From the NCBI GenBank assembly GCA_017506865.1, contig JAFCMP010000179.1:496001-560000 (forward strand): a stretch of DNA of 64,000 bases, given 5' to 3'. Shown one piece after another: positions 37,436-58,300 of the stretch (positions are counted from its first letter, which is position 1; the number at the start of each line of letters is the position of its first letter). Both the position numbers and the translations under genes were made by a program. The DNA is from Tribonema minus (Eukaryota > Sar > Xanthophyceae > Tribonematales > Tribonemataceae). The notes under the pieces were generated by a model. That model saw only the letters and a program-made list of their open reading frames with translations, searched no databases and was not told the DNA's origin.

Positions 37436-38443
37436 TTACCTGTTTCTGCCACGCATGGATCCGCCATGATCGTAATCTGCATCCCAATATGAGGTTGGCT
37501 CGTGTGCCCTCAAGACTCTTGCAAATCCTCTGAGCTTCAGCCCGACCTCTGAGCAAGCCATCATCACCACAGTGACCTTCCTGACGGCGTCAACTGTGGT
37601 CAGGTAACCCTGTCCTGGCTCAGCACAGTGACTCATGCATACTGTGTCGAACAGAACCCTGGCTTCGATTTCCTGCACATACCCCTCCGGACTTCTAGAG
37701 TGACTTTTCTCCAGGTTCAGTGTGCTCTTCAGGCGTTTGAAACTCAACTCCACTCTCCATCTCATCTGGTACAGCATCTTGACTTTCGAAACAGTTGATT
37801 CGAAATTTGTGGCGCATACGTATTTGACACCGTCAATGTAGTATTTGTACAGCCACATTGGTGTGATGATCCCATCAGCGATGAGCACTACCTTCCTGTA
37901 CGTACATCCTTGCCTGAAGAAGAACTTGACAGATCTGCAAGCATTTTCCCTGACTCTAAAAACTGCTTTCAGACCCTTTCCGTTTGCACTACGCAGCATT
38001 GCAAGAGAGAAGTATCCCCTATCGAACAGCATGGTGTCACCCCTGGACAATCTATTCATGTGCAGCACCGCACATGCTCTTTCATTGAAGCTTTGTGAGG
38101 TGCACAGGTCAAAGCAGGTGCGAGAGTCAACATCAAGCGCAGATGAGAGCAGCATTAGACGGCGAGCTTCCGTTCGGTTGGAGGTTGTCTTACATCCATA
38201 ACGAGCGAATGAGGGGTGCACCCGTACCTTTGAACCATCGATGGCGACGATTCTAGAGCCTTTGGTGCATGGATTTTGTAGGCTGTAGTTGAGCTCCTTG
38301 AAGTACCCTGCAGGTATCTTCATACGTGCTTTGGACAAGGCCTGGTGCGTGTACTCAGCGTAGTCCCTCGGTAGCACATGCCTCAAACCTCTGTTGTCGA
38401 TAGAAGACGAAATCTGCATACAAGGATTTGAACATGTGTGCAT
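37436..38443 (-). CDS. IS4-type DDE transposase, copy 2, full length
   Basis: 335 residues from ATG 38443 (MHTCSNPC). It has the D, D and Y-(2)-R-(3)-E-(6)-K motifs of the IS4 family (VAIDGSKV, MLFDRGYF, YQMRWRVELSFKRLK). The N-terminal ~30 residues that copy 1 lacks are present here. C-terminal differences from copy 1 (RVLRAHEPTSYWDADYDHGG) are near the end. It would cut at the ~19-bp ends; the 8-bp target duplication in both copies shows the staggered cut of this enzyme type in this genome. Confidence 0.92.
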   Translation of the reverse strand: MHTCSNPCMQISSSIDNRGLRHVLPRDYAEYTHQALSKARMKIPAGYFKELNYSLQNPCTKGSRIVAIDGSKVRVHPSFARYGCKTTSNRTEARRLMLLSSALDVDSRTCFDLCTSQSFNERACAVLHMNRLSRGDTMLFDRGYFSLAMLRSANGKGLKAVFRVRENACRSVKFFFRQGCTYRKVVLIADGIITPMWLYKYYIDGVKYVCATNFESTVSKVKMLYQMRWRVELSFKRLKSTLNLEKSHSRSPEGYVQEIEARVLFDTVCMSHCAEPGQGYLTTVDAVRKVTVVMMACSEVGLKLRGFARVLRAHEPTSYWDADYDHGGSMRGRNR

Positions 38444-39297: not shown

Positions 39298-39368
39298 ATG
39301 ACAATTGAAAGACCCTGTGTTATGCATGCCGTGTGTCGTTGTATTGTCAAACTTTACTGTGCACTACA

Positions 39369-39614
39369 CTACTTTAGTTTAAGAGCTTTCATGAGTTTCT
39401 TGTTGCGATGCGTTGTGCGGTTAGCGGTGACCGCTGGCCTGAGATCTTTTAGCTTCTTGACTTCAATGCCCCTATCCTTTCTGATCATGAACCTCTGTAA
39501 GTTGTCAGAGTCTCTCTGGGTTTTCAGGCTCACTTTTGTCACCGGACGTGCACTCTTGAGCGGCACGGACCCCCTTGTCGAAACGTTCCTCTCTCGAATG
39601 GTGAGGGAAAACAT
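39369..39614 (-). CDS. Small basic protein
   Basis: 81 residues, ATG 39614, with Arg and Lys spread along the chain and a basic C-terminus (TTHRNKKLMKALKLK). A TATA-like taatatattg lies on the minus strand at ~39655-39664, upstream of the start, which favours this frame over the hydrophobic 122-codon frame on the plus strand (39298-39666). Nucleic-acid binding is plausible from composition only. Confidence 0.5.
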   Translation of the reverse strand: MFSLTIRERNVSTRGSVPLKSARPVTKVSLKTQRDSDNLQRFMIRKDRGIEVKKLKDLRPAVTANRTTHRNKKLMKALKLK

Positions 39615-39690
39615 GATGTATGGTTGTGATGCGATGGATCGCTCTTACATAGTGACAATATATTAAACTGCACACAGTAAATTCAGCAAA

Positions 39691-40998
39691 TTAACCGATC
39701 TCTATATTGATCTCATCGTCATTGTCATCATCCATGTCATGGTTTTGTGCTTCTGAGAAGATGTTGTGGAGGAGGATGTTATTCGATGCAAATGCCATGT
39801 CAGTAGGCGACTGTCCGGCAAGGTTGCGTGTATAGCGGCATATGGCATCGCATGCGGCTACATATGTCTTTGTAAAGTTGACATTCTGGTGTTTCACAGA
39901 CACATGCAGCGGATTCTCTCCCTGAAAATCTGTTGTGCTGAGGTTTTGAGATGCTTGGATCAATAACGTGGTGATGGCAGCAGGAGCCGAGCGTGCTGCA
40001 ATGTGCAGCGGCGTCTGACCCAACAGGTTTGCCAGATCGGCTGACGCTGAATGACACATTAGCGTGTACACCATAGCCACGTCATTGAGCCTCGTTGAAA
40101 AGTGCAGTGCGCTTTCCGATGCGTTGTCTGTGGCATCAACGTGACCGCCTGCAAGGATGAGTTTATTGGCGATGATCGTGTTCTTTGCTAGACTCGCAAA
40201 GTGGAGAGGGGTCTGCCCAAATTGTGTCCGTAAGCGGGGATTGGCTCCAGCTGTCAGCAGTATGCTCACTGCCTCAGCATCACCACGAGCTGTGGCATGG
40301 TGAAGAGCAGTGGTCCCGTCCTCACATCGAATGTGCACGACACGCTGATAGTTCTGTATCCTCTCGCGCATGCCTCCGTAGTCGCTGTCTGCTAGGCAGT
40401 CCATCAAGCAGTCCAACTCTTCTTCAGGGTCAAAGTCAGTTCCACGCGAAGAACCATCATGAATGCCAATCGGGTTGCCTGCTGTGCCTAGTGTAGCTGG
40501 CATTGTAGGTGTGATTACCGGTGGCTGACCTGCATTCAGTGCTGGCATGTTTATTAAGCCAAACAAGTTTTCGGTGAGACGCAATGCGTTTTGTGCAAAG
40601 GCTGCATTTGCAACAGCGGTACCGCCCCCTGCTCCTACCATATTCTCCATACCTGGCAGGTTGAATACACTGAAGGACATGGACTCTGTGGCATTTCGTG
40701 GAGCATTTGGCACGTTGGCATTAGCTGGCTGCTGTGGTACCACTGGTTGACCGACGCCCGGTACAGGCATCAGCGGCGTTCTGCAGTTGGGACAAGTCGT
40801 CGGATTACCCCGCCTGCTTTGAGTCTGATTCCATCTCAGCAGGCAGGCCAAGTGGAACGCGTGACCGCAGTTCGTGGTCACCATCGCACCAGTCGACAAC
40901 TGACATATAGGGCATGGCTCGGGCAAGGGTGGTGATGCGTCTGCATCAGCGTCTGCTGCTGCGTTCACGGAAACTGCAGGGCTGGTCTCCTCCGACAT
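39691..40998 (-). CDS. RING-H2 and ankyrin-repeat protein
   Basis: 435 residues. The N-terminal RING-H2 has all eight ligands: C29, C32, C44, H46, H49, C52, C69, C72. A low-complexity Pro/Asn/Ala linker follows (~75-200), then at least five ankyrin repeats (~225-400) with the typical G-x-T-x-L-H-x-A, A-N-P-R-x-R, G-Q-T-P-L-H and N-x-x-G-E-N-P-L-H-x-S turns. The end is acidic (DMDDDNDDEINIE). It is probably a ubiquitin ligase with the ankyrin array as the target binder, a layout common in large DNA viruses. Confidence 0.92.
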   Translation of the reverse strand: MSEETSPAVSVNAAADADADASPPLPEPCPICQLSTGAMVTTNCGHAFHLACLLRWNQTQSRRGNPTTCPNCRTPLMPVPGVGQPVVPQQPANANVPNAPRNATESMSFSVFNLPGMENMVGAGGGTAVANAAFAQNALRLTENLFGLINMPALNAGQPPVITPTMPATLGTAGNPIGIHDGSSRGTDFDPEEELDCLMDCLADSDYGGMRERIQNYQRVVHIRCEDGTTALHHATARGDAEAVSILLTAGANPRLRTQFGQTPLHFASLAKNTIIANKLILAGGHVDATDNASESALHFSTRLNDVAMVYTLMCHSASADLANLLGQTPLHIAARSAPAAITTLLIQASQNLSTTDFQGENPLHVSVKHQNVNFTKTYVAACDAICRYTRNLAGQSPTDMAFASNNILLHNIFSEAQNHDMDDDNDDEINIEIG

Positions 40999-41096
40999 GT
41001 CCTGCTCAATTATGCGGTTGCGCTATCATAACATTTTATTTGTGTCTCACTGCACACTTTGCTGTTCTTTTTGTTGCTCTGGTATCGTAAGCTTCG

Positions 41097-42092
41097 ATGC
41101 ACTACCTCTACAGGTTCTTCAGCACCTTCACGGGGCGTACGTCACAGCAAGCATTCAACACATGGATGTCCTCGCACGCACCGAAGCGGGGAGACGTCCG
41201 CAACAGGAGAGCTTTGCACTTGCAGCACATTGAGTGTGCCGGGTACTCAGGTTGCTCTATCGATGAAGCTTGCCGTAGCTTCTTCTTTCAAGTGTTGGGA
41301 GTAGCAGAGACGGGGCGAGGGCAGAAATTCACTGTATGTGATGCAGCAGCTCTTAAGCTGAGTCACACTCTCAGGTTTTGCGTCAATGGTATGAGAAATC
41401 GAGGGAGCTATGGAATTGTATTGAGTGGGTTGACTCTGCAAGGTGAGCATGTGGTCATTAAAGTGTCCAACTTGAGCCCCGGGAAGGGCGTTACAGTGCA
41501 CGGGGATGAGTGGTTTCCCACCAAGGTATCGAACTTTGAGCACGAAGTGAACATGCTAGCAGCCCTCAATCTGTGTATGCAAGGTGCTATCCCGCAGCTG
41601 CTCGAGTCAGGCATACTTAAGGCAGGGCCAAGGGCCGTGTTCGGCACCATGCTGTTGGAGGACGTTGGCACTGTCAATCTGCACACGTACCTGTCTAGCA
41701 AAACCAGTACGGATCACATGCGCTTGATGGTAGTGCGTATGTGCGGCGCAGCGCTGCGTGAGTTTCACGGCAAAGGCTTCTGTCACGGCGACCTCCACAC
41801 CGGCAACGTCATGGTGTGTAGTGGCGACTGTATCAAGTTCATTGATTTGGCGAGGTGCATGTTCTCTGACTCTGAGCAGATGAGGCTATTCGACCTTGCA
41901 ATGATTCTAAACGCCATTGATGATGTGAGTGTGCACCACACACAAAGTCTGTGCCATGAGCTACTGTCATCATACCACAGAGGGGGCCCGCATTCTACTT
42001 CAGTAGATGACTACATGATGACAGCAGAGGAACTCAATGAGATGAGGGCTTCTTACACAAGCGCTCTCAAAGCGTGGCGTAAAGGGGCATGA
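41097..42092 (+). CDS. Protein kinase-like protein
   Basis: 331 residues. The catalytic core is intact in outline: Gly-rich region MRNRGSYGIVLSG (~100-112), VVIK (K122), a helix Glu in EHEVNMLAAL, the catalytic loop HGDLHTGN (H230-N237) and FIDLA with the metal-binding Asp at 250. HGD-x-H-x-x-N is the loop type of RIO, ABC1 and aminoglycoside/choline kinase-like families rather than classical HRDLKxxN. The substrate is unknown and could be protein or small molecule. The first ~90 residues form an extra domain. The stop overlaps the start of the small downstream frame. Confidence 0.85.
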   Translation: MHYLYRFFSTFTGRTSQQAFNTWMSSHAPKRGDVRNRRALHLQHIECAGYSGCSIDEACRSFFFQVLGVAETGRGQKFTVCDAAALKLSHTLRFCVNGMRNRGSYGIVLSGLTLQGEHVVIKVSNLSPGKGVTVHGDEWFPTKVSNFEHEVNMLAALNLCMQGAIPQLLESGILKAGPRAVFGTMLLEDVGTVNLHTYLSSKTSTDHMRLMVVRMCGAALREFHGKGFCHGDLHTGNVMVCSGDCIKFIDLARCMFSDSEQMRLFDLAMILNAIDDVSVHHTQSLCHELLSSYHRGGPHSTSVDDYMMTAEELNEMRASYTSALKAWRKGA

Positions 42093-42124
42093 TAAAATGT
42101 TTGATAACTGTCAATAGTACTAGC

Positions 42125-42388
42125 ATGGCCGCATTCGTTAACAAGCTGCCACCTTTCGACATGGACGATGAAATCGAAGAATACATGTGGCTCGTGTACG
42201 ATACAATCACAAAGAGAATCGAAACGGATCAGGTTTTGCTGTTGGATAATCTGAGCTTTAAAGAGTTTGTTAGTGTGTGCTACAAATACACGAGTGAGAG
42301 GCCAGCTTTCATACAGGATGATGTTGAAGGTGACTGGTCAGATGGTGAAGACTCTGAACATGCACTTTTACAAACTACAGAGACGTGA
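42125..42388 (+). CDS. Small acidic protein
   Basis: 87 residues from ATG 42125 (MAAFVNKLPPFDMDDEIEEY); the frame is open back to 42089, overlapping the kinase-like stop, so a slightly longer version is possible. Acidic patches at both ends (DMDDEIEEY, DDVEGDWSDGEDSEH) flank a helical middle with a Cys/Tyr pair. No family recognised. It is probably in one transcription unit with the kinase-like gene. Confidence 0.6.
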   Translation: MAAFVNKLPPFDMDDEIEEYMWLVYDTITKRIETDQVLLLDNLSFKEFVSVCYKYTSERPAFIQDDVEGDWSDGEDSEHALLQTTET

Positions 42389-42844
42389 GCGTGGACACCA
42401 GTTTGCTGCAACTAGGACAACCAGTTGTTCAGTAAATGCCGGCAGATCATGCTGCCCGCAGTACCTGTAGCCAATCACATCCCAAAGACGGTTGCCACCA
42501 GGTGGTAAACAGATCAAAAATTCTTTCACAGTGCAGCACAATGGCGCGCAAAGAAGCATCTGTTGTCTGCTGTTCAAACACATCTCATTGATGCTTAAGT
42601 TCACTTTGCTTACGCACATGCATCAGCCCCTACCATGTGCTCATGTCGCATCTCGTGTTTCATTGGAGCACCGGTGACAGGATGCGTGCGCTGTGCCCAC
42701 TTCATGTTTGTGAGCGGCAACTTCTGGTGGTGTATATATCCCCCACATGCATATACACATGGACTCATCCATTCCGAACGCTGTATAAGAGTAGGTGACA
42801 TGTGAGGCCCACCTGTTTCCGTTGACATGACTCATGTGGGTCTG
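42389..42844. other. Gene-poor stretch with a promoter-like element
   Basis: Short frames only. At 42731-42745 the minus strand reads gggggatatatacacc, close to gggggtatacacac upstream of the EsV-1-7 nuclease gene (50291-50304). On the minus strand it precedes an ATG at 42706 that opens a frame of only 31 codons. This could be the promoter of a tiny gene, an RNA, or the remnant of a lost relative of the modular nucleases. Confidence 0.35.
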
Positions 42845-44233
42845 TCACACACAAGACCTGATTGTGCCGATCATGTTTTCATCAAAGCCGGTGTCCTCAC
42901 ACACAGTCGGCAGCCCGTATGTGGTCGGGTAGCACAAATATACAAGGTTGAGCGGCTCCTCGAACACCTGCTGCCCGTCTCGCACCCTTCCCAAAAACTC
43001 GAGCAACACTACCTCCCGCTCCTTGCGTGTCATCTTGACGCGCTCGCCGTCCCTGGTGATGGTCCCATTGGGGCTGTAGCGCACAAAGACCACCGGCACC
43101 GTGTACTTCCGCGACAGGATAGCCTCGTGCACCTGCAGCATACGGGTGATCTCACAGGACACCAGGTAGCTGGCATGCGCCTCCTCGTCCACCTCAACAA
43201 TAAGAATGCAGGAAGTGATGGTGACGACATAGATGTCCAGGCGCGCGCGGTGGCGGTCAGGGTCGGGCACGCAGCCTGTGTACTGAATGGTGCACTCCTC
43301 ATCAATAGTGTAGCCTGCCTCTTTCAGCACCTTGACCACACGCATCTGCTGCTTGAGCTGCCGCTTGGCACCTTCCTTGCTGTGCATTGCGCGCTTGTGT
43401 CTGGTAAGGTGGGCAACTTGTGCACAAGTGTGGTCGCAGCCCTCAAAGTCACACTTGTATGGCCGATCACCGCTGTGCTTGCGCTTGTGCTTGATGAGGT
43501 CGCCGGACTGTGCGCACTCGAAATCGCAGCCCTCAAGGTCACATGTGTATGGCTTTTCACCACTGTGCTTGCGGGTATGCCTGATGAGATTGCTGCGGTC
43601 TGCACAAGCGTAGTCACAGCCCTCAATGTTACACTTATAGGGCTTGTCGCCGCTGTGAATGCGCTTGTGTGTGGTGAGGTTGCTGGACGTTGTGCATTTG
43701 AAGTCGCACCCCTCAAAGTCACACTTGAAAGGTTTTGCACCGCTGTGAGTGAGCTTGTGTGTGGTGAGGTTGCTGGACGTTGTGCATTTGAAGTCGCACC
43801 CCTCAAAGTCACACTTGAAAGGTTTTGCGCCGCTGTGAGTGAGTGTATGCCTGTTGAGGCTGGAGGACGTTTTACACTTGTAGTCGCAGCTCTCAAAGTC
43901 ACACTTGAAAGGCTTCTCGCTTGTATGTTGGCGCTTGTGTGTGACGAGATGACCGGATGTAGGAAAGAGCATATAGCGCTCCATGTTCTCATCTGCGTCC
44001 TTCTCCATGTCTGTTGATGATGGCGCCTCCGCAGCCTCTGCCATGGCACCCCCCAGCAATATGCTTGTGAATGGGCTGGATACGGTGCCGTCTTCTTGGA
44101 CACGAGCAATAAAACCTGCAACGTACTCCTGCGCTTCTGCATCCTTTGTGGCACATGCAGCTGACAGGCGTTGTCTTATGACATCGCTCCTCTGCTGCTC
44201 CATTGAAGGCTGTTTGTGTCGCAGCTTTGGCAT
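42845..44233 (-). CDS. C2H2 zinc-finger array fused to a PD-(D/E)XK-like nuclease
   Basis: 462 residues. Residues ~10-65 form a helical module (RSDVIRQRLSAAC..AQEYVAGFIARV) that also opens the EsV-1-7 nuclease gene at 50252. Next are one degenerate and six complete C2H2 fingers of the C-x4-C-x12-H-x3-H type in 30-residue steps; recognition helices differ (TSSSLNRH, TTSSNLTTH, ADRSNLIRH, AQSGDLIKH, AQVAHLTRH), with two nearly identical fingers. From ~300 a nuclease-like core reads RARLDIYVVTITSCILIVEVDEEAH (Asp, then E-V-D) and later VVFVRYSPNG. The layout is that of a natural zinc-finger nuclease: fingers to find DNA, core to cut. DNA cutting is inferred from motifs. Confidence 0.82.
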   Translation of the reverse strand: MPKLRHKQPSMEQQRSDVIRQRLSAACATKDAEAQEYVAGFIARVQEDGTVSSPFTSILLGGAMAEAAEAPSSTDMEKDADENMERYMLFPTSGHLVTHKRQHTSEKPFKCDFESCDYKCKTSSSLNRHTLTHSGAKPFKCDFEGCDFKCTTSSNLTTHKLTHSGAKPFKCDFEGCDFKCTTSSNLTTHKRIHSGDKPYKCNIEGCDYACADRSNLIRHTRKHSGEKPYTCDLEGCDFECAQSGDLIKHKRKHSGDRPYKCDFEGCDHTCAQVAHLTRHKRAMHSKEGAKRQLKQQMRVVKVLKEAGYTIDEECTIQYTGCVPDPDRHRARLDIYVVTITSCILIVEVDEEAHASYLVSCEITRMLQVHEAILSRKYTVPVVFVRYSPNGTITRDGERVKMTRKEREVVLLEFLGRVRDGQQVFEEPLNLVYLCYPTTYGLPTVCEDTGFDENMIGTIRSCV

Positions 44234-44555
44234 AGTACAGATGCTGTAAGCCTGAAACTAGAAAACAATTTTGATGCACACACCACGCCAGCAATGAAGT
44301 GAATGAAGGCAGGCGTCGCCCGCATTGAATTTCATTTAAAGTCGAGACCTCAACAAATTCGGTTTCGAATCTGAATTTTTGAACAGGGACGCCCAATCAT
44401 TCAAATTCGGTGTCTCAATATAAATGCAACGTGATTCACTCCGGTTCCCGGCCAAAGGCACCCGTGCGCTGTGTATACATAAATGTGGACCTGCAACTAC
44501 TCATTGTCAACAATGACCTGGCATTATTTTGCACTCTGTACACACGGTGCTCAAA
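44234..44555. other. Intergenic stretch, no gene seen
   Basis: About 320 bases between the C2H2-nuclease start and the next gene's end. It is AT-rich with gaattt, attcgg and tttcgaatc words (44330-44410) like other gaps in this window. It should hold the promoter of the C2H2-nuclease gene. No RNA or coding frame is convincing. Confidence 0.45.
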
Positions 44556-44984
44556 TCACGCTGCCTGCAGTGCGGCAACCATCATGCTCAGAAACGCTTG
44601 CAACTGCGCCGGGTCACCACTGGCTTGCGCTGCAACAAACTGAGCCTTGTACGCATCACGTTGTGCTTCAGTCAGCTTGGTCATGAAATTTCGGAACATG
44701 ATAGTTTGTTGGTCTTGAGGAATGCCTGCGGCAGTGAGCTGCACGCGACCCAGCGCTCTAACGTCAAGTGGGACTGTAGCGATAAGGTCGTCCAGCGCAT
44801 TCTTCTTTGTGACGGGGTCGTACAGCTCGGTCTTGACGGGCTCACCAGCAAAACCAGCAAGACTGTCATCATCCAACTGCAGGACAGGCGCGTTGCTCAG
44901 CCCCAGCATGTTGGTACGCTTGACTTCTCCAAACATTGCCTTGGACGGTATGAAAGGTCGTTTGCCGACTTGTAAGAGCGACAT
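44556..44984 (-). CDS. Conserved-looking protein of unknown function
   Basis: 142 residues from ATG 44984 (MSLLQVGKRPF). The first half is extended with hydrophobic and Asp/Asn turns (LQLDDDSLAGFAGEPVKTELYDP); the second half is helical with Gln/Ala-rich runs (AYKAQFVAAQASGDPAQLQAFLSMMVAALQAA). No family recognised. Composition is like small structural proteins of the virion, which is only a guess. Confidence 0.6.
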   Translation of the reverse strand: MSLLQVGKRPFIPSKAMFGEVKRTNMLGLSNAPVLQLDDDSLAGFAGEPVKTELYDPVTKKNALDDLIATVPLDVRALGRVQLTAAGIPQDQQTIMFRNFMTKLTEAQRDAYKAQFVAAQASGDPAQLQAFLSMMVAALQAA

Positions 44985-45211
44985 GTGCTTGCTTGCTTTG
45001 CTCACATGCACACATAAAAAAAGCTGGGGACGCACTGCTCACGCTTTGTAGCATCGCCGATGCATGCCGCCACTGGCGCCGGTGCTTTTATTGCGGTCTG
45101 AGGTGAGCGTTGTCGCTTGCGCTCGGATTTCTATGGCCATGACTACAGAATTTCGATTGAGAGCACTCTCAGGCAGAGAAATAATACAAGTAGTATGTAC
45201 TGAAGAGAGTG

Positions 45212-45442
45212 ATGTCCACGGTTTCAATGCCGCCCCGTTCAGCCTTGAACCTCAAGCTGCATGATGTCAAGGGCGCTGCAGCGTGTATCATAACGTGCGC
45301 TGATATGATGGCGGAAGATGCAGATCCTGATGTTGTGTCCCTTCTGCTCAACGCGTGCAAACAGCTCAGAGAGGAAGTGGAACGTCTTCAAGCAATGATT
45401 CCGGCGGACCTACTCGTTGAAGGTTCACTTGTCAGCAAATAA
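45212..45442 (+). CDS. Small helical protein
   Basis: 76 residues from ATG 45212 (MSTVSMPPRS), with another ATG at 45227. The middle is a long helix with Leu and Glu spacing like a coiled coil (VVSLLLNACKQLREEVERLQAMIP). The start codon is one codon after a GTG that opens the frame. It lies 30 bases upstream of the basic KSPRR protein on the same strand. Family not recognised. Confidence 0.55.
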   Translation: MSTVSMPPRSALNLKLHDVKGAAACIITCADMMAEDADPDVVSLLLNACKQLREEVERLQAMIPADLLVEGSLVSK

Positions 45443-45472
45443 TTTATGTGTCTTTTGGTATACTGCAATCGA

Positions 45473-45682
45473 ATGGCACCCAAGTCGCCTCGTCGCACGT
45501 CGAAAAGCCCCCGCAAGCACGGCAGCACTGCGCCACGCGTGCGCAACATTGCCGCTCTAATTGATGCCATCCGCGCCAATCAGCAGCATCGCACCCACGC
45601 GTCCCCAGTGCGTCTCGCCCGCAAGTCTCCGCGGCGCCGCACGCCATCCCATCGCACTCCTTCCAGGCGGCGCAGGAGGTGA
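45473..45682 (+). CDS. Protamine-like Ser-Pro-Arg basic protein
   Basis: 69 residues from ATG 45473 (MAPKSPRRTSKSPRK). Most of the chain is Arg, Lys, Ser, Pro and Thr, with KSPRR and TPSHRTPSRRR repeats and a terminal RRRRR. A short neutral helix (ALIDAIRANQ) interrupts it. Such sequences condense DNA, as protamines and histone H1 tails do. It is probably a virion DNA-packing protein and may work with the SPKK protein at 16827. Confidence 0.65.
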   Translation: MAPKSPRRTSKSPRKHGSTAPRVRNIAALIDAIRANQQHRTHASPVRLARKSPRRRTPSHRTPSRRRRR

Positions 45683-45713
45683 ATTTTAATATAATGCAAC
45701 AAGCATCAACGCC

Positions 45714-46157
45714 ATGACTGCGGACCCTCGGATAATAGCATACACAGGGATGCGGCACAGCGATCCAGATGGGCGCATCAGACCCATCCTCAAGCCAAAT
45801 TTGTTTCGATGCATTCTTCAAGAACGAAAGTATGAGACGACGGACCGCAACGAGCCCGTGCAATGGAGCAAATGGCTGGACATGCGCGATTTTATATGGG
45901 CCAAGGCAAGCAAGGATGCTTCAGTGCAGAATGTGGACCACCAGACCATGGTTTACGATTTGGATGCAGTCATGCGGTCTGTATTCGATGCATGCATAGT
46001 GTGGGGCGACCATCGCTCCTCCATTGATTACATGACACAGGCAGCTATAGACCAGCTCATAAAAAAGTGGCACTACTCTTTCGTGTCCCCTGCTCCCACG
46101 TCTCACATGCCAATGTCAATGCGACCTCTGGTAACATCAATCAAGAAGCAATTCTAA
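45714..46157 (+). CDS. Unknown globular protein
   Basis: 147 residues from ATG 45714 (MTADPRIIAY). It is Trp- and Tyr-rich (WSKWLDMRDFIWAKAS, WGDHRSSIDYM, KKWHYSF) with mixed helix and strand. No membrane helix, signal or known motif. Spacing to the neighbours (31 bases on both sides) is typical of a gene in a compact plus-strand block. Confidence 0.65.
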   Translation: MTADPRIIAYTGMRHSDPDGRIRPILKPNLFRCILQERKYETTDRNEPVQWSKWLDMRDFIWAKASKDASVQNVDHQTMVYDLDAVMRSVFDACIVWGDHRSSIDYMTQAAIDQLIKKWHYSFVSPAPTSHMPMSMRPLVTSIKKQF

Positions 46158-46188
46158 TTATAAAAATGTTTTCAACAAGTGAACGACC

Positions 46189-46794
46189 ATGCAACGTGCT
46201 GCAGTTGTTGGCCTTGTGACAATTGGCGGTCTGGCGCTGTTGGTGTGCTTGATATTGCGTCTCCTCAAACAGAGCCAGCACAAGGCGCAGGGTGCGTCAG
46301 TTGCAGTGGCAAGCAACGCGCAATATGCAGTGATAGCCAAGCTCAGTGGGGCTGCAGGTTCCATCAATGATGGTAGGAAATCGTCGTCGTGCTGGTTCGT
46401 AGTTCTGCCAGCAGGAAAGAACCAGAGGCTAGCGCTCAAACCTGCGACCAAGCCAAAAGCGTTCAAAACGTTCACATTGAGTGATGGACACTCCATTTTA
46501 CTGGATGCAGGGACCAGGTCGACATATGTAGCCCTCGACAGGACGATGAAGCCCTTCACTGGACTTATGGGAGCTCAGGGCGCGTCGGCACCCATGCTGC
46601 TGGAAATGGGTGCAAATGGAGGGCTGCAGTTCTCCACTGCTAAAGGTCAGTGCGTCGGAGTGGACTGGCGGGCAGACGCCAACGACGGTAAACCAGTGTT
46701 TTACAGTAGCACTCAGTGCCCAGCAGGCGTCACAGCCAAGCTGCAGAAGTTACACGTAGTACCTTATGGTGTAGACTGCTCCAAGCTAGCGTAG
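46189..46794 (+). CDS. N-anchored membrane protein
   Basis: 201 residues. One N-terminal helix (AAVVGLVTIGGLALLVCLILRLL, ~4-26) is followed by a beta-rich ectodomain with paired Cys residues (SSSCWFVVLPAG, GQCVGVDWRAD, SSTQCPAGV, VDCSKLA). The layout is like the membrane proteins of virus particles with disulfide-linked domains. It overlaps the tail of the convergent acidic gene by 31 bases. Family not recognised. Confidence 0.65.
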   Translation: MQRAAVVGLVTIGGLALLVCLILRLLKQSQHKAQGASVAVASNAQYAVIAKLSGAAGSINDGRKSSSCWFVVLPAGKNQRLALKPATKPKAFKTFTLSDGHSILLDAGTRSTYVALDRTMKPFTGLMGAQGASAPMLLEMGANGGLQFSTAKGQCVGVDWRADANDGKPVFYSSTQCPAGVTAKLQKLHVVPYGVDCSKLA

Positions 46795-47054
46795 TGTAGG
46801 GGAAGCGGCTGCGCCATGTAGTTGAGTTCATCCTCTGAGTCCAACTCACTATAATCCGAACTATCACCACCATCTGAGTCAGATTCATCTTCCTCACCGC
46901 TGCTGCTACTCGTTTCGTCTAGCTCATCAGGCCATAAACTCTTGTACTCTTCTTCAGTAAAGCCAGCATTCGTGAGAGAACGCGGTGACAATGTCTGCAT
47001 TGATTGTTTCGATTGTTTCGTCTTGGCACGTGTTTGCATCGGTTCTGATGACAT
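46764..47054 (-). CDS. Acidic low-complexity protein
   Basis: 96 residues from ATG 47054 (MSSEPMQTRAKTKQSK). A basic N-terminal stretch is followed by a helix (NAGFTEEEYKSLWPDELDE) and an Asp/Ser/Glu-rich C-terminal half (GEEDESDSDGGDSSDYSELDSEDE). No family recognised. It may be a partner for basic proteins. The ATG at 47099 is a less likely start. Confidence 0.5.
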   Translation of the reverse strand: MSSEPMQTRAKTKQSKQSMQTLSPRSLTNAGFTEEEYKSLWPDELDETSSSSGEEDESDSDGGDSSDYSELDSEDELNYMAQPLPLHYASLEQSTP

Positions 47055-47118
47055 GACCAGGGTCTCTTGTTTTGAAATCAACTTTTTTTGTGTTAGCATT
47101 AGTACACACTCTCAACTT

Positions 47119-47559
47119 ATGAATTCTGATCTGTTTGTCGCTGTAGTCATCATCATCTTGTACCTACTGGGCATAGGCCAGTGCAAATATGCGACGGTGG
47201 TGGCAATAGGCCTGGCAGTGTACAGCTGGTGTGCCAAGTCAAGGCATGGAGACTGTCCATCGTGTGCAGACAAGTTCCCCATGTCCAATGATGATTTCAA
47301 CAACATGATCCTTGCAAATTTGAGGAGGCAAGAGCGAGGCAGTCAAGGGGCAGCGGCGGCGCCGCCTCCAGGTGGTGCACCACCTACCACAGCTGCCTCA
47401 GACACCCGTGACGTTCCGCCTTCAGATGACAAACCTCAGTCGCAACTGCCATCCCGCTTTGCAGGCGACAGGTCAGCGTTTTATGAAACTGTGTACAGGG
47501 ATGAAGCTCTGACGCCTAGACAGAGTCCGGGCATTTTCACTCTCGATGCACTCAGGTAA
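47119..47559 (+). CDS. Membrane protein with Pro-rich tail
   Basis: 146 residues from ATG 47119. Helix 1 (DLFVAVVIIILYLLGIG, ~3-20) and a second (YATVVAIGLAVYSW, ~23-38) open the protein; CPSC follows, then a Pro/Ala/Gly-rich linker and a polar C-terminus (FAGDRSAFYETVYRDEALTPRQSPG). It is divergent from the acidic gene. Virion membrane localisation is plausible. The longer frame from 46942 is rejected because it runs through the neighbour's promoter and coding part. Confidence 0.65.
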   Translation: MNSDLFVAVVIIILYLLGIGQCKYATVVAIGLAVYSWCAKSRHGDCPSCADKFPMSNDDFNNMILANLRRQERGSQGAAAAPPPGGAPPTTAASDTRDVPPSDDKPQSQLPSRFAGDRSAFYETVYRDEALTPRQSPGIFTLDALR

Positions 47560-47616
47560 GGCGCGTTTCGCTGAGGCTCATTAATATGTGTGCTATGTGT
47601 TATAGAGAGATACAAG

Positions 47617-48249
47617 ATGCCTCGCCACTCTAACATCGAAGATGTCGGAACGAGGGCTGCGGCGTATTTTGATATGCCCGTAGCTGACAGACTGCGTGAC
47701 GCGGACCAGAAGTATGCAGTGGTGAGCATAGTAGCACCAGAGGGCACAGCCCAAAAATCCAAGGACATGATGATACGCATCTACGGATGCCGCCCAACGA
47801 TTCAGCAGGCTAATGAGTATGCGCGCAAGCTGCGTGACTCCAACAATTTCTTTGATGTTTACACGATCGAAACGCATGAGTGGGCACCCCTTCCGCCTCA
47901 CATAGACAGCATTGAAGACGTGCAGTGCACAGACGAGCGCGTACAAAGCATTCGGGACTCTTACATTGAGCACCTCAAGGGGCAGAAAGCCGAGCTGATC
48001 GAACGTCTCGAGAACCAAGAGAGGGAAATCGCTATTAAAGAGGGGCAACGCCGGGCGCTCAAGAAGGAGAGGAAAAAGTATTACGACAAAAAGGGTAGGC
48101 CTCTTGTAAGTATGAGTCAAATACCCGAGGATGTGCGCCTACCTAGGGACAGGGCTAAGAAGCCTGCTGAAGTTGTCACCAATGACGAGGCTGAAGACAT
48201 CTTTTCAAGCGATGACGAGGGGGAATCTGCACAGGAGTCAAAGGCATGA
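47617..48249 (+). CDS. DUF5832-like NCLDV protein
   Basis: 210 residues from ATG 47617 (MPRHSNIEDVG). The pattern is that of a family conserved in many giant viruses: DQKYAVVSIVAPEGTAQKSKD, KIYG-type turn with IRIYGCRPTIQQANEYARKLR, then FFDVYTIETHEWAPLPPHIDSIEDVQ. The rest is a long charged helix (AELIERLENQEREIAIKEGQRRALKKERKKY) and an acidic tail. The family has no known activity. It is a marker for the Nucleocytoviricota origin of the window. Confidence 0.78.
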   Translation: MPRHSNIEDVGTRAAAYFDMPVADRLRDADQKYAVVSIVAPEGTAQKSKDMMIRIYGCRPTIQQANEYARKLRDSNNFFDVYTIETHEWAPLPPHIDSIEDVQCTDERVQSIRDSYIEHLKGQKAELIERLENQEREIAIKEGQRRALKKERKKYYDKKGRPLVSMSQIPEDVRLPRDRAKKPAEVVTNDEAEDIFSSDDEGESAQESKA

Positions 48250-48497
48250 AGCTCGGGCCACACATTTAAAATGTGGGTAATAGCAAACAAGACATGACGG
48301 AAAAAATTGTTGAATTCATTGCATTGTGCATACGTGTATTGAGAGCGGACCTGCCTGATGACTTGAGCTGGAAAGAAACACAAGACCGCGTGTCAGTGTT
48401 ATTGATGTAGCTGTGGCGACACTCTCATGGTAGGTGTGCTTGCCAAGTAGGTGCTCAGAAATCGCATGGAAACATTTTGTGCATATGGACTCGATCA

Positions 48498-49712
48498 TCA
48501 CACCATGTACTTCGTCATTTCAGTCTGCTTCACCTTGGCGTAGCGCTGCTGGAGGTGCAATATTGCGCGTCGTGCCAGGGAGTCCACACGAAGCCAAAGC
48601 TGACGGTCCATCGTGACGCCGTGGTGCGCGGCCACTTGCCTAGCCAAACCTTCAAGGCCCTCACGCGCGTCCACTGCAAAGTTGATTGCGCCTTCTATGG
48701 GGGGGAGGCCTCCGTCGCGGTATCGAATCACTGTATAGCCGAGTGCCGTGGTGGCACGAGTTTTGTGGGAGTCATGATCGTGCTTATCCCTGTGGTAATG
48801 GACGCCATCGTACTCGACTATGTCCTTCTTAAGCAGCAGGTCGGGGATAATGGATGTGCCGTCGGGTAGCTGGATGCGGTGGTCGAGGCAGGCAAGGTAG
48901 GGGTCGAGGGGGTCTCCCTCAAACACGGCCAAGATAAGGAAGGCCGTCGACGTTGCGAAAAATTCTTGAGTTGACTTTCCCCTGAGTTTCACCCCGCAGA
49001 TGTCGCCCAGGCAGTCAGACAGTCGCTGTCCGTGCTCACAGCGGCAGTGTTTGATGTCGATCATGCCGTCAATTTTGCAGTTAGAGCAACACGTGGGGCG
49101 TTCGTCCTCCTCAAAGCCGAAGATCGGTCGCACCTGACCACACCCGCACAAAACATTGACGACATTGACCATGTTGTCATCCTTGCAAAGTGCACAGCAA
49201 GTGGCATGTTTGTCCTCCTTAAAACCGAAGCTCGGTCGTGCCTCCCCGCAAATGCAGCGCCTGTTGACAATATCGCTCATGTTGTCCTGCTTGCAATGTG
49301 CACAGCAGGTGGCGCGCAAGTCCTCCTCAAAACCGAAGCTCGGTCTTGCCTTGCCACAGTTGCAGCGTCTGTTTGCAATGTCTGTCATGTTGTCATTTTT
49401 GCAGAGTGCACAGCAAGTGGGACGTTCGTCCTTTTCAAAACCAAAGCTCGGTCTTACCTTTCCGCACTCACAGCGCCGGCTGACGATGTTGACCATACTG
49501 TCCATCTTGCATAGCGCACAGCAAGTGGCGCGTACGTCCTCCTCAAAACCAAAGCTCGGTCTCACTCGTCCGCACTCACACCTCCTGCTAACGATGTTGA
49601 CCATGTCATCTGACTTGCAAAGTGCACAGCAGGTGGCGCGTTCGTCTTCCTCAACACCGAAGCTCGGTTGTGACTTGCCACAGCTGCAACGTCTGTGGGA
49701 GATGTTGACCAT
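48498..49712 (-). CDS. EsV-1-7 repeat array fused to a PD-(D/E)XK-like nuclease, downstream part
   Basis: 404 codons. Six EsV-1-7-type repeats of 36 residues (108 bp) come first, each C-x-C-G-x..P-S-F-G..C-C-x-x-C-K-x..M-x-x-I. The canonical motif is C-x4-C-x16-C-x2-H; here the last His is Cys. Then a nuclease-like core of the DUF559/Vsr kind: IIPDLLLKKDIVEYDGVHYH (Asp, then E-Y-D-G), followed by LGYTVIRYRDGGLP. The same frame continues upstream, past a TAA at 49728-49730 and five open codons, into the N-terminal part. The whole is probably one gene of ~585 codons with a nonsense codon, or two proteins made separately. EsV-1-7 motifs are known from phaeoviruses and brown algal developmental regulators. 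Confidence 0.82.
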   Translation of the reverse strand: MVNISHRRCSCGKSQPSFGVEEDERATCCALCKSDDMVNIVSRRCECGRVRPSFGFEEDVRATCCALCKMDSMVNIVSRRCECGKVRPSFGFEKDERPTCCALCKNDNMTDIANRRCNCGKARPSFGFEEDLRATCCAHCKQDNMSDIVNRRCICGEARPSFGFKEDKHATCCALCKDDNMVNVVNVLCGCGQVRPIFGFEEDERPTCCSNCKIDGMIDIKHCRCEHGQRLSDCLGDICGVKLRGKSTQEFFATSTAFLILAVFEGDPLDPYLACLDHRIQLPDGTSIIPDLLLKKDIVEYDGVHYHRDKHDHDSHKTRATTALGYTVIRYRDGGLPPIEGAINFAVDAREGLEGLARQVAAHHGVTMDRQLWLRVDSLARRAILHLQQRYAKVKQTEMTKYMV

Positions 49713-49727
49713 ATCGTCTTTTTTGCA

Positions 49728-50252
49728 TTACGCACAGCAAGTGGCGCACTCATCTTCCTCAAAACCAAAGCTCGGTTGTGCATTCCCGCACATACAACTC
49801 TTATCGACTACGTTTACCATACCCTCGCTTTTGTGCGTAATGCACCACTGACCTCCAGCGCCAGGGACGTTGTACTTCGCCTGCTTCGTACACGTCGGCT
49901 GCCTGCATTCATTGAGCCGCTTGTGCTCTTCACACCACTTGCGCGGCGCGTTGTGGGGGCAACCGGGAAATGCACACGGCTTCCTCACGGTGCCACCGCC
50001 ACTCACGGCGCTCGCTGCAGTCAGCACAGTGCTCGCTAAAATGGGTACGGGATCCTGTGGTTCCTCCTCCATGAACTGTGCAATGTACGCAGGGGCATCC
50101 TCTGCTCGCCTCGCATACTCTGCGGCGAGCCGTGCGCGAACGACATCCCTCCTTGCAGCAGCGTCTGATCTGTACTGCATGCGGCGCCGCCGGTTTGCTT
50201 TTGCTGCCTCAGCTGAGGGCTTGGGGAAAACCTGTTGCTTGCTCTTTGCCAT
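49728..50252 (-). CDS. N-terminal part of the EsV-1-7 nuclease gene
   Basis: 174 codons from ATG 50252 (MAKSKQQVFPKPS), ending at TAA 49728-49730. It has the helical module shared with the C2H2-nuclease (RRDVVRARLAAEY..APAYIAQFM), then a Cys-rich stretch (CAFPGCPHNAPRKWCEEHK) and a canonical EsV-1-7 motif with ECRQPTC..WCITHK and the GMVNV turn, then the first repeat of the array ending C-C-A just before the stop. The stop replaces the Leu codon of the conserved C-C-A-L-C-K, so the frame is broken in the middle of a repeat. A TATA-like ttaatatatg at 50311-50320 on the minus strand lies ~60 bases upstream. Confidence 0.75.
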   Translation of the reverse strand: MAKSKQQVFPKPSAEAAKANRRRRMQYRSDAAARRDVVRARLAAEYARRAEDAPAYIAQFMEEEPQDPVPILASTVLTAASAVSGGGTVRKPCAFPGCPHNAPRKWCEEHKRLNECRQPTCTKQAKYNVPGAGGQWCITHKSEGMVNVVDKSCMCGNAQPSFGFEEDECATCCA

Positions 50253-52363: not shown

Positions 52364-55300
52364 ATGTCTGTTGCGCCTTCAGGTGCAACAATCAATGTCG
52401 CCGGTGGTGACACCATGGCTCCGGCCGTAGTCGCCATCGGCACCCTAGGCACAAACGCCACCTACACATACATGGTCAGCTGGTCATCTACCAACTCAAC
52501 GGTGGCAACCATGACGGACTGTGGTACCTGCGTTGCTCAAACCGCCACTCAGACTGTGATGATCGTTGGCCTCACTGCCAACACCACCTACTACTTCTGG
52601 GTCCGTGCCAAGGACACCAGCACCTTGGCGTACACTGTCATTTCATCAACATCATCGGCGTTGACGACAGTTACTCCTCCGTCAGGGTGCACCCTCTCGG
52701 TCAGTGGTACCACCCCGCTCACGTGCAACGCTACAGTAACAATGACGACGTTAGGTACCGCAGGCAAGTACAACTACTTCATATCTTCCGCTACAACTAA
52801 CTCAACGGGCGCTGCAATGACGGACGTTGCACCTCTTCTGCGGCAGACCGCTTCGCAGACACCCGTCATTTCGGGACTGACCCCCAGTACTACCCGATAC
52901 CTCTTTGTTCGTGCGCAGAATGTCGACTCACTGCTCTACACTGTGGTATCAACGACGGGAACGGCTCTCACCGTACCTGCTGGAACACCTCCTGCAGCTT
53001 CGGCGTGCGTAGCGTCCACAGCGAATTGGAGCCAGGCGCAAGTGTCTGTGACAATCAACACACTTGGTACAGACTCACTCTACCTGTACTACGCATCGAG
53101 TTCACCTACCAACTCCACATCAGGTACGATGAAAAACTACGGTGTGTACACGAAAACAACAAGCAATCAGTATATTTCCGTGACAGACGTACAAGCTCTG
53201 AGCACCAACTATTGGTTTGTCAGAGCGCAAAATATTAGGACCGGTGCATACACTGTCCTTACCACCGGGAGCGCCCTGACCCAGGTCGGGAATATTTTGC
53301 CTACAACAGGCACCGTGTACGCGACAGCAGTTGGTGCAACTACGGCAACTGTGGGTGTCGCTTACCCTGACTGGGCTACCAATTATGAGTATTGGCTGTC
53401 GCGTTGTGCTACCAACTCAGCGAGCGGCACGATGATTGATGTCAGCTCAATGTGGACTTATGATAGCTTAGGAGGTTTTAGTTTCTACGCATCAGGCTTT
53501 CCTGCGGGAACCACGTGCTACCTCTTTGCCAGGGCCCGCAACACATACACGGGCGCTAACGTAGTGTTGAACACCAACGGACGTGCGGTCACGTTTCCTT
53601 CAGCAAGCCCTTACTACGAGTCTGCCTTATTTGTACCATACGATCTTACGGGAAGTGATAGATTTGGATGCAGCGTGGCGGTGAGTGGCAGGTACGCTGT
53701 TATTGGGGTGTGTGCTCGCTCTATTAAATACACCATTACCTCAGCGGGAGTAGCACAAGTGCAGGAGTTCAGTGGCGCTACTAATCAGTGGGTCAAGACT
53801 GCTACCCTTTACCCTGATGACGTGTACACAGGTGACAGCTTTGGATATGCGGTATCCGTGAGCGGAACTTATGCAGTGATTACAGCTAACCAAGCAGATC
53901 CGGGATGCAAGACAAATGCGGGCGCCGCATATGTGTTCGAGAGAAATGATCTGACGAGCGTATGGGAACAGAAGACCAAACTCGTCGCCAGCGATGCCCT
54001 TGCAGGAGACGGTTTTGGCTCCTCTGTAGCGGTGAGCGGGACGTATGCGATGGTAGGTGCATCGCCGAGAACCGAGCTGGGTACTGCTAATTCAGGTGGA
54101 GTGTACGTTTTTGAGCGCAATGCCAGTTCAGCGGTATGGGAGCAGAAGGCGATATTGTTCCCAAGTGATCTTCCTGCAGGATCGTATTTCGGAAACAGCG
54201 TTTCCATATCTGGTACGTACGCTATCGCGGGGGCTTACCAAAAGTCGGGGGGCGGAGGAGCATACATTTTTGAGAGAAACTCTGGGACAGGTGTCTGGGA
54301 GCAGAAGGGAATTCTCACCTGCTCCGATTCGTCCACTGCAAACTTCGGTTTCAGCGTAGCTATCGACGGGACGTATGCAATCATCGGCGCTAATGCTAAG
54401 ACCGTGAGCTCACTTGCAAATTCCGGGGGAGCGTATGTGTTTGAGAGACTCTCGGGTACATGGACACAGACTGCGGTGCTGAATGACCCCTCGCCAGCGA
54501 CAAATGACTCATTCGGATGCTCAGCAAGCATCAATGGCACCTATGCGGTAATAGGTTGCAAGGGTGCAGCCGGCATCGGGTGTACGTATGTGTACCAGCG
54601 CAATTCGGGCACTGGCACATGGGATTACAAGGCGCAGCTGACATCCTACGACAAAGCCTCCGGCGACGGCATGGGTTCCGCTGTAGCCGTGTCAGGGACA
54701 CATGTAATGTGCGGAGCGCCGGGCAAGACAATTACCCCTCCCTGGGGAAATGTCTATGCCAACGCTGGACAGGCGTACATGTTTGAGTTACCTGTTGCGC
54801 CCGCCGCAACCATCGTGGTGGCCGGCGGAGACACTACGGCTTCCGGCACCGTCGCCATCGGTACCCTCGGCACAGATGCATCCTATACCTACGTGGTGAG
54901 CTGGTCATCCACCAATTCGGCTGGCGCCACCATGACGGACTGTGGATCCTGCATCACACAGATGGACTCTCAGGCCGTCCTGCTCACTGGTCTGACCGCT
55001 GCCACCACCTATTACTTCTGGGTGCGCGCTAAGAATACCAGTACCTCGGCGTACACAGTCATCTCGACGTCGTCCGGGCTGACGACATCTACGGTGCCCT
55101 CAGGGTGCACCCTCTCAGTCAACACCATCACCCCGACAACATGCAACGCCGCCGTTACGATCACTACGCTGGGAGCGTCCGGAAAGTACAGTTACTTCAT
55201 CTCCAGTGCCTACACCAACTCGACAGGCGCTGCGATGACAGATATCATGCCCCTCCTTGCACAGACCGCGTCGCAGACACCCGTTGTTTCAGGATTGAGT

Positions 55301-58300
55301 GGAAGCAACACAGTGTACCTGTTCGTTCGCGCCCAGAACGCCTATACCTCGCTTTACACAGTGTTATCGTCAACGGGGACGACGGTGACGACTCCTGCTG
55401 GAGTCGGTCCTTCAGGAGCGACAGTGAGCACGTCATCAGTTACAGCTACCAGCGCCACCGTGACTGTGACCATGACTACACTGGGAACTGCTACGGCTTA
55501 CAAGTACTTCTTGTCCAGCTCGCCCACAAGCTCCGCAGGCGGCATTGATACCAATTTGGCGGTGCTGGCGGCACAGACGACCTCTCAAAACGTCTCGCTG
55601 ACTCAACTAGCACCGTCCACGACGAGGTATCTCTTTGTCACTTACAAGTACGCCGGGGGGGTAAGGACCAACATCAATACCACAGGCGTCGCTTTGTCTA
55701 CGCTGAGCACGGGAAGCGCACCCACAGGATCAACCATCTCGGTGACATCGGCAGCATCAACCACAGCAGTTGTATCTGTTACCATGACCACACTGGGAAC
55801 CAATGCCAATTATGCATACTACCTGTCATGGTGTTCCACCAACTCCGTCGGAGGCACCATGGTGAACGGATGCATCCTTATTGCTCAGACCGCCACCCAG
55901 ATAGCGTACCCATCGGGTTTGCCTGCGGGCACGTCTCCCTACCTATTTGTCAGGGCAAAGAACGTGCTGACTGGATCTTACACGGTGATGAGCGCCTCCG
56001 GAACTGCAATCGCAATGTCGGCAGCGACTGTTTATTACGAGGCCGCTGCGCTCACCGCATTCGACCCTCGCTCAAACGACAGGTTTGGAACTAGCGTAGC
56101 AGTGAGTGGGTCCTACGCTGTGGTGGGAGCATACCTGAAGGACTCTTACGGAGCGACAGATGTAGGAGCCGCGTATCTGCTAGAGCTCAACGCGACGACA
56201 GGTGAGTGGGAGCACAAAACCGTTCTGTACCCATATTATGCTTATGCATCTGATTACATGTCCGCAGGCGACCAATTTGGGTATGCTGCATCTGTGAGCG
56301 GAACGTTCGCCCTCATCGGATCACCCTACTCTGAGACAGGAAAGGCGGATGCTGGCTCGGTGTGTGCATTTAGCCGCAACTCAAGTACAAATGCATGGGA
56401 CGCAGAAAGTTACGGCAGAATCAGTGCTGGTGATGGACTGCCAGGGGACTGTTTTGGATACTCTGTATCCGTGGAGGGAACGTACGCAATAGTCGGTGCA
56501 CCTTATAGGACTAGATTAGGGGCTGCACAATCAGGCGCAGCGTATGTGTTTGAACGAAGCAGTTACTGGCAGCAGAGGGCCATCCTACTCCCTAGTGATA
56601 TACCCACGGCATCAAGGTTTGGATCGAGTGTCGCTGTAGACGGAACATCCAAGTATGCCATTGTGGGGGCCTACGCAAAGGCCGGAGGAGGAGGAGCATA
56701 CATTTTCGAGAAGAACTCATTTAGCGGTGCCTGGGAACAGAAGGCGATCCTTACAGCATCTGATTCCTCAAGCGGAGGCTTTGGTTACAGTGTGTCCATA
56801 GACGGTGCATATGCTATCATCGGTGCTTACTCAAAGACAGTGAACTCAGTCAGCAGTGCCGGGGGAGCTTACGTCTTTGAGAGGGTTACAGGAACATGGA
56901 CACAAGCTGCTATACTGGACAACCCCGATCCAGTGGCCTCTGACCAGTTTGGTTTCTCTGTATGTGTCAGTGGAGTATACGCGGCCATCGGGTGTTCCGG
57001 CAAGGACCCGGCCGCTAAAAGCAATGCTGGTTCTGTGTACCTGTACAAACGCAACTCGACGACGGGGACGTGGGAGGCCAAGATGCAATGGACAGCCAGC
57101 GATGGCCTCGCGAACGACCAGATGGGATGCGCCGTTTCGATTTCGGGTACCCACGTCATGGTGGGCGCGAGTATGAAGACGGCCGCAGGCGTTTCCGGCG
57201 CGGGAGGAGCTTATGTGTACAAGCTGCCGGCCGCGGCTGTTCATCCCGTTGCCACCATATCAGCACCATCAACAGTATCCCCCACGGATGTGGCGACGGT
57301 TACCATCCAAACGTTAGGAACAGACGCTACCTATACTTATGTAGTCAGCTACAGCACCATCAACTCATCCTCAGCGACCATGGTGGATTGCGGAACTTGC
57401 GTGGCACAGACAGCACCTCAGAGTGTCGCTATAGCTGGCATCGTTACGGCAACAACTTACTACCTGTGGGTACGCGCAAGGATTTCAAGCACCTCAGGAT
57501 ATACAGTTATCTCCTCGAGTGCCACCATTACCACAACTGGGACCTGGCCTCCAGGTGGAGGTACCATTACTCTTTCCGCCATTACGCCACTGACGTGCAC
57601 TGCGACGGTGACTGTAGTTGCGCTCGGCACTGCTGGGGCGTACAATTACTTTCTCTCCAGTTCGCCTACCAACTCCACTGCAGCTACTATGACCAACATT
57701 GCGTCCATGTTAAGACAGACTGGTTCTCAGGCTCTGTCGGTGTCTGGGCTAGCGCCAAACACGACAACGTACCTGTTCCTGCGCGCCCAGAGCGTCGTCG
57801 ACGGTTCGTACATTGTCATGACGATGAACGGAGTGACTCTGACCACATTGGCAGGAGTAGCGCCGTCGGGAGGAACCGTGGGAAGTCCAACGAGTATCAC
57901 TGCGACCTCCGCTACCACAGCGGTAACGCTGACTACCTTGGGCTCGGACTCCTTATATAACTATTTCTTGAGCTCGTCTCCCACCAACTCAACAGGAGGA
58001 ACGATGACAAATCTGGTGGCACTGACGGCCCAGACGACATCTCAAAATGCATCGCTGACTGTGCTTGCCCCGTCTTCGACGAGCTACCTGTTTGCGCGGG
58101 CACAGGACGCTGTCACTGGAGCATACATCTTCATGACCACCGTCGGTACCACGCTGACCACTCTTGGAACGGGCACCGCACCCACTGGATCCACCATCTC
58201 TGTTATATCCGCAGCCTCCACCACGGCAGTTACAACAGTAACGATGACTACCTTGGGGACCAATGCCAATTATGTGTATTACCTGTCGTGGTGCGCAAGT

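Follow-up and report, generated by a model that had tools for sequence, protein, structure and literature searches.

Candidate homing endonucleases with exchangeable zinc-array readers in endogenous giant viruses of Tribonema minus

Does the DNA of Tribonema minus encode natural counterparts of engineered zinc-finger nucleases, and what would such enzymes be doing there? The question is raised by two genes in a stretch of 64,000 nt, called the window here, which covers positions 496001-560000 of contig JAFCMP010000179.1 (C179) in an assembly of 158 Mb and 554 contigs. The original prediction described them as a two-member family of modular nucleases, with zinc-repeat readers and PD-(D/E)XK-like cores exchanged around a common N-terminus. 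The architecture proved real, but the family is far larger than two and gene 2 is broken. The observation was confirmed in part, and the interpretation is likewise partly supported. We consider it probable that genes 1 and 2 belong to two large families of free-standing homing endonucleases in endogenous giant viruses, with exchangeable zinc-array readers. What the analysis shows directly, as set out below, is the homology and architecture, the zinc arrays, the allele differences, the empty sites and the predicted site. Each gene appears to be built as an optional N-terminal module, a zinc-repeat array and a putative nuclease core, in that order:

42845..44233, minus strand: gene 1, a C2H2-array nuclease-like gene of 462 aa with an intact frame (open reading frame [ORF]; Pfam zf-C2H2)
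44024..44233, minus strand: N-terminal module of gene 1 (first 70 aa), common to gene 2
43382..43903, minus strand: six C2H2 fingers of gene 1 (Pfam)
42848..43384, minus strand: putative core of gene 1 (core 1; alignment of 16 sequences)
48498..50252, minus strand: gene 2, a nuclease gene with an EsV-1-7 array and an in-frame TAA that breaks it (ORFs; Pfam)
49998..50252, minus strand: N-terminal module of gene 2
49074..49907, minus strand: EsV-1-7 repeats of gene 2 (PF19114), as seven regular C-x-C units (49074-49796) and a variant unit (49830-49907)
48501..49043, minus strand: putative core of gene 2 (core 2), of DUF559/Vsr/EDxHD type, with D471, E480, D482, H487 and D494

The six fingers expected in gene 1 were all found, and their helices read TSSSLNR, TSSNLTT, TSSNLTT, DRSNLIR, QSGDLIK and QVAHLTR. 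The C2H2 arrays follow the zinc-finger consensus, with near-canonical linkers and helices that can be decoded, and two of them yielded decoded sites. An open frame of 396 aa runs antisense to gene 1 (window 42827-44017, plus strand) and is most probably a side effect of the repetitive finger codons.

A second contig, C90, is collinear with C179 at all points compared, and we therefore take the two as carrying related endogenous giant viruses. The nucleocytovirus major capsid family PF04451 matches the assembly at 10 places, one of them at C179:469997, 26 kb ahead of the window on the same contig, and another on C90. On either side of gene 1, window 39353-42411 and 44552-48412 align with C90:1158177-1161243 and C90:1161290-1165140 at 95.3% and 94.0% identity, respectively, and the 2140 bp between them (42412-44551) stand opposite 46 bp in C90, which has no gene 1. 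The features of this locus and its flanks are:

42443..44571, no strand: stretch holding gene 1, absent from the C90 provirus (C179/C90 alignment)
44556..45035, minus strand: neighbour gene P159 (159 aa), containing the decoded target region; C90 protein 94% identical
44695..44712, minus strand: the window's mutated copy of the predicted gene 1 site, CCAACAAACTATCATGTT, where C90 has GGAGCAAACGATAATGTT
41097..42092, plus strand: kinase-like gene across the gene 1 insertion (Pfam Kdo/APH); 97% identical in C90
47617..48249, plus strand: DUF5832 gene beside gene 2, a conserved flank (Pfam); 93% identical in C90

P159 matched no Pfam family at E 0.1. In the outgroup C59, homologues of P159 (41% identity) and of the 99-aa ORF at window 42089-42388 (the latter recognised by eye) have about 20 bp and no nuclease between them, which favours an insertion in the C179 line. 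The gene 1 stretch is bounded by a 20-bp direct repeat (17/20), at 42443-42462 and 44552-44571. At a second C179 locus, L025, 4,975 bp with two tandem C2H2 nuclease genes are absent from C90, and the flanks (L025 1-804 and 5780-7501) match C90 at 95% and 93%. Presence in C179 and absence from C90 at one site was seen at both C2H2 loci compared.

Decoding used a simple -1/3/6 zinc-finger recognition table that was fixed before the first scan, and the six-finger array of gene 1 gave the predicted site GGAGCAGACNATNATGTT. Across 400,544 bases of the studied loci (overlapping loci counted), the top match was GGAGCAAACGATAATGTT at C90:1161433-1161450, scoring 19.3 of 23.9 with the next at 13.7, and it lies inside P159, about 145-190 bp off the empty junction in C90. 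Such a match is expected by chance 1.9e-5 times within 250 bp and 4.5e-4 times in 11.7 kb. One of 360 finger orders reaches 19.3 (the next, 19.2), the reversed order scores 7.4, and none of 11 other arrays, read in sets of six fingers, fits this site (best -log10 1.97). Genome-wide, the pattern with at most one mismatch occurs at 6 places and a reversed control pattern at 2, and the site stays on top with three of four alternative codes. The occupied allele, CCAACAAACTATCATGTT, differs at 5 of 18 bases and scores 10.4, with bases lost at fingers 5 and 6. A homing reading of gene 1 is well supported because an empty site, a decoded target adjoining it and a mutated target in the occupied allele are found together, and to that extent the proposed natural counterpart of zinc-finger nucleases held up; the allele pattern at locus 2, described below, is the reverse.

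That C90 has the gene 1 site and no gene 1 would equally suit interference nucleases, which a virus keeps to cut related competitors during co-infection, with homing as a by-product. An intron endonuclease is reported to act in phage competition (PMC11620839), and the same role has been proposed for a giant virus (PMC5871332). We regard interference as the principal function as improbable; the present sequence data do not distinguish it from homing, and the two may apply together.

The second decoded array, L025b, has eight fingers. Its top match among 452,631 bases was L025:609-632 (21.1 of 24.0; next unrelated match 15.9; per-position p 1.5e-9), inside the neighbour gene and 172-195 bp from its own insertion. 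The own-locus -log10 E is 4.65, against a maximum of 2.32 over 228 array-to-other-locus pairs. The empty-allele version sits in a patch of 20 substitutions per 90 nt, and between C179 and C90 the ORF with the site has 18 changed codons that are silent and 3 that are replacing. Divergence patches hold both decoded sites, falling in the top 1.3% (gene 1) and 0.25% (L025b) of 90-nt windows. An earlier candidate, that the empty allele carries the locus 2 site, was based on the empty-allele scan alone (expected 0.0185 per locus; shuffles as good, 0/100 for the full array and 5/100 for sub-arrays) and is corrected by the better site in the occupied allele. The tandem partner L025a (14 fingers) has no site at the empty locus or in its own flank; at the empty locus, 69/100 shuffled finger orders equal its best sub-array and 14/100 its full array.

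Are the cores nucleases? The expectation of PD-(D/E)XK-like cores was borne out for core 2, and core 1 shows only a conserved E/D/H pattern. In core 1, E313, D333, E347, D349, H353 and E361 (gene 1 numbering) are invariant in 16/16 aligned sequences, and the invariant alignment columns are E30, D50, E64-x-D66, H70, E78 and R81. This E/D/ExD/H/E pattern is reminiscent of the PD-(D/E)XK/EDxHD superfamily and may be catalytic. The single-sequence structure model of core 1 was of too poor quality for a fold search. No relatives were found in IMG/VR, phages (window core), plasmids (L031 core) or prokaryote genomes, and distant relatives may be missed by the contig scans because these use short exact patterns. 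Purifying selection acts on both core families, with dN/dS of 0.05-0.17 in 8 pairs for core 1 and 0.09-0.26 in 6 pairs for core 2. Common descent of the two cores was considered and rejected, as hhalign gave probabilities of only 0.1% and 0.3%.

Core 2 matches PF04480 (DUF559) above the cut-off (E=8e-6), and its relatives match DUF559 in 7/13 cases and Vsr in 2/13. A profile of 18 sequences matches I-Bth0305I (PDB 3r3p) at E 4.6e-8 and 3hrl at E 6e-7. The AlphaFold model has a mean pLDDT of 65, with block means of 77-91 for residues 51-110. Foldseek gave 3r3p a probability of 0.97 but an E of 0.03, with no match at 0.001 or below, and the lowest E-values, 0.004 and 0.007, went to R2 retrotransposon proteins (probabilities 0.75 and 0.60). 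Similarity in sequence and predicted fold, together with the conserved acidic and His residues, identifies core 2 as a putative Vsr/DUF559/EDxHD-type nuclease. Among its IMG/VR relatives, L069 and L072 lie in apparent inteins (L069 judged by eye, L072 by an intein profile match below the cut-off), and L071 is in a stand-alone DUF559 protein. In the IMG/VR contig L070, an EYDG..WH core is surrounded by nine helicase-associated domains, a further case of a modular array fused to this type of core.

As expected of gene 2, seven or so EsV-1-7 repeats were found, namely seven regular units and one variant. PF19114 scores above the cut-off in six stretches of the downstream piece and one of the upstream piece, and the in-frame TAA (window 49728-49730) falls between repeats; related copies on C90 and C223 have open frames. 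At the gene 2 locus, both proviruses have an EsV-type nuclease, with 61-87% identity over the gene (ungapped 100-column bins), lowest over the EsV-1-7 repeats. Around it, identity is 99% just before the gene end, 81-97% in the upstream gene and 93-98% beyond 51545, and dS between core 2 and its C90 counterpart is 1.18, compared with 0.09-0.22 for three neighbours. This pattern indicates that the gene 2 tract has been replaced or converted locally. The shared architecture and the low allele identity over the array suggest that EsV-1-7 repeats may read DNA, as does a published Ectocarpus Tc1-type transposase with an N-terminal EsV-1-7 domain (PMC12477816), which by analogy hints independently at DNA binding. 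The variability of positions across 30 repeats of one spacing showed no clear recognition positions.

The arrays could instead belong to sequence-specific regulators or autoregulators that bind upstream of their own gene, with cores dead or otherwise employed. Each of the two decoded positions is some 460-530 bp upstream of the start codon of its nuclease gene and in the gene's own orientation, the L025b site is intact in its own allele, and F replaces E at the ExD position in 6/13 aligned core 2 sequences. We find regulation unlikely, if the strongest of the alternatives: core 2 groups with homing-type nucleases, the cores are under purifying selection with invariant D and H (plus E in core 1), presence/absence occurs at two loci, and the gene 1 site is mutated in its own allele.

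Several results weigh against homing. The L025b site scores 21.1 in its own, occupied allele and 14.3 in the empty one, and locus 2 thus runs counter to the simplest homing picture, in which the better site would be in the empty allele; nicking or tolerated self-sites, an escape of C90 by silent change, or a regulatory role are possible explanations. Absence from C90 at both loci could be loss, and at locus 1 the 20-bp repeat would permit recombinational deletion. This repeat is weak alone, since 35/2970 random window-stretch pairs score as high, and the C59 gene order is not identical, an extra gene lying beyond the 99-aa ORF homologue on the kinase side. Searches tie core 1 to no known family and demonstrate no nuclease fold for it. 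As for the decoding, the table comes from the general zinc-finger literature rather than from a tool and is approximate, matches for gene 1 were assessed at four distances from the empty site with nothing notable within 50 or 100 bp, the site is not the top match under the strictest of the four alternative codes, and equally dense divergence windows (18, 17 and 16 substitutions) occur elsewhere in the flanks. Own-flank sites were sought for 12 arrays with at least five C-x4-C fingers, leaving out smaller arrays and testing gene 1 apart. They were absent for 10/12 arrays, and L040 was marginal (1.41); because the pattern takes C-x4-C fingers only, some arrays were incompletely read. The 10 arrays without a site and the approximate code would agree with coincidental sites in ordinary multicopy zinc-finger genes that are gained and lost by recombination. 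We think this the least probable of the alternatives, given two separate matches of about 2e-5 each and 228 control comparisons in line with chance.

Far from being a family of two, the gene 1 core type occurs at 30 places in the assembly and the gene 2 core type at 41. These 71 places were hand-picked out of 88 search rows, leaving out short fragments and second pieces, and 11 of them have a capsid match no more than 100 kb away, where at most 1.3% would be expected (p 1.7e-9, although places sharing a contig are non-independent). The capsid link of the gene 1 core type alone is weak at 100 kb (2/30, p 0.055), and at 200 kb the count is 5/30 (p 9e-4). Three EsV-type nuclease loci (L051 and L056 on C346, and L057 on C40) are near-identical, recent copies, and a major capsid gene is no more than 2 kb from the C40 copy. 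At L027 (C100:49000-54000), two C2H2 nuclease frames of 674 aa each stand head to head and overlap, one per strand, resembling an inverted duplication or a fold-back in the assembly. Dense EsV-1-7 clusters on C70, C549 and the C445:43000 region have a spacing unlike that of the nuclease genes and are perhaps host EsV-1-7 genes.

The N-terminal modules of genes 1 and 2 are homologous as judged by sequence comparison, and the predicted similarity held in a statistically controlled alignment (cross-family shuffle tests; hhalign probability 96.8%). The exchange of reader and core around this common N-terminus has the same statistical support, but a genome search found the module in only 8 of the nuclease-type genes.

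Taken together, we infer that these enzymes cut DNA and home. The gene 1 array would read about 18 bp of the conserved neighbour gene in a related virus lacking the nuclease gene, and the core would cut there. Repair off the nuclease-bearing genome would copy in the gene plus nearby sequence, turning a sensitive site into a resistant one. Arrays and cores would be reshuffled between copies, a new reader giving access to new sites, and gene 2 would be the same kind of enzyme with EsV-1-7 repeats as its reader, its window copy being broken. Nothing in the analysis supports the suggested host-DNA-degrading role. In a wider form, giant viruses would have evolved true zinc-finger nucleases as homing endonucleases in a large family that swaps long arrays of C2H2 fingers or EsV-1-7 repeats, the latter a second, undeciphered modular DNA code, onto nuclease cores, with targets readable from the protein and checkable at empty sites; we see the balance for and against this as even. 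If true, engineered zinc-finger nucleases would have a precedent in nature, serving viral self-spread or competition, in which the target of a homing enzyme is predicted from the protein sequence and then looked up in the empty allele. It would also open the function of EsV-1-7 repeats, whose family is expanded in brown algae, to testing.

Elsewhere in the window, a DDE_Tnp_1 transposase gene (37436-38443) lies close to the nuclease genes, a hybrid histidine kinase whose N-terminus resembles that of ethylene receptors (ETR1_N) occupies 3056-5116, and an open frame of at least 3879 aa (52364-64000), with matches to FG-GAP and fn3 repeats in its first 1000 aa, runs off the end.

How do these genes compare with known systems? 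We found no report of stand-alone zinc-array homing enzymes in the literature searched, and a search for zinc finger nucleases described as natural or native returned no papers, with most subscription literature outside its coverage. Only a transposable-element paper, the source of the Ectocarpus transposase, was found to contain both "EsV-1-7" and "endonuclease" (PMC12477816). Homing endonucleases have been described in the introns and inteins of a giant virus (PMC5871332) and, VSR-like ones included, in spliceosomal introns of mirusviruses (PMC12768974). One of the closest parallels is the intronless homing of seg and mob genes in T4-like phages, likewise stand-alone ORFs between conserved genes that are absent from a close relative, with a distant target in a neighbour gene and allele-specific patches. 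The free-standing T4 endonucleases cut hundreds or thousands of bp away from their own gene and for the most part inside neighbouring ones, show co-conversion and marker exclusion, and are of the GIY-YIG or HNH type (PMC2988022), whereas long C2H2 or EsV-1-7 arrays and other cores occur here, in eukaryote giant-virus DNA.

The EDxHD homing endonucleases (I-Bth0305I, 3r3p) share with core 2 the conserved D, E-x-D and H and a similarity in profile and fold, but here the putative reader is an EsV-1-7 array, and core 1 has no detectable relation to them. R2-type retrotransposon proteins, which gave the core 2 model its lowest Foldseek E-values, also combine zinc fingers with a restriction-like endonuclease; unlike them, the frames here have no reverse transcriptase and the arrays are long. 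In gene 1, as in engineered zinc-finger nucleases, a C2H2 array precedes a nuclease-like core and the site is decodable by the triplet code. Unlike them, gene 1 gives no sign of paired half-sites, as there is no comparable second half-site within 150 bp, and its core is likened to theirs by layout, not by FokI kinship. Lastly, gene 2 has PF19114 repeats in common with the EsV-1-7 proteins of brown algae and their viruses, such as IMM, which is called a protein of unknown function (PMC7457493). The described members have developmental or unknown functions (PMC7457493, PMC12993054), whereas in gene 2 the repeats are joined to a putative nuclease core.

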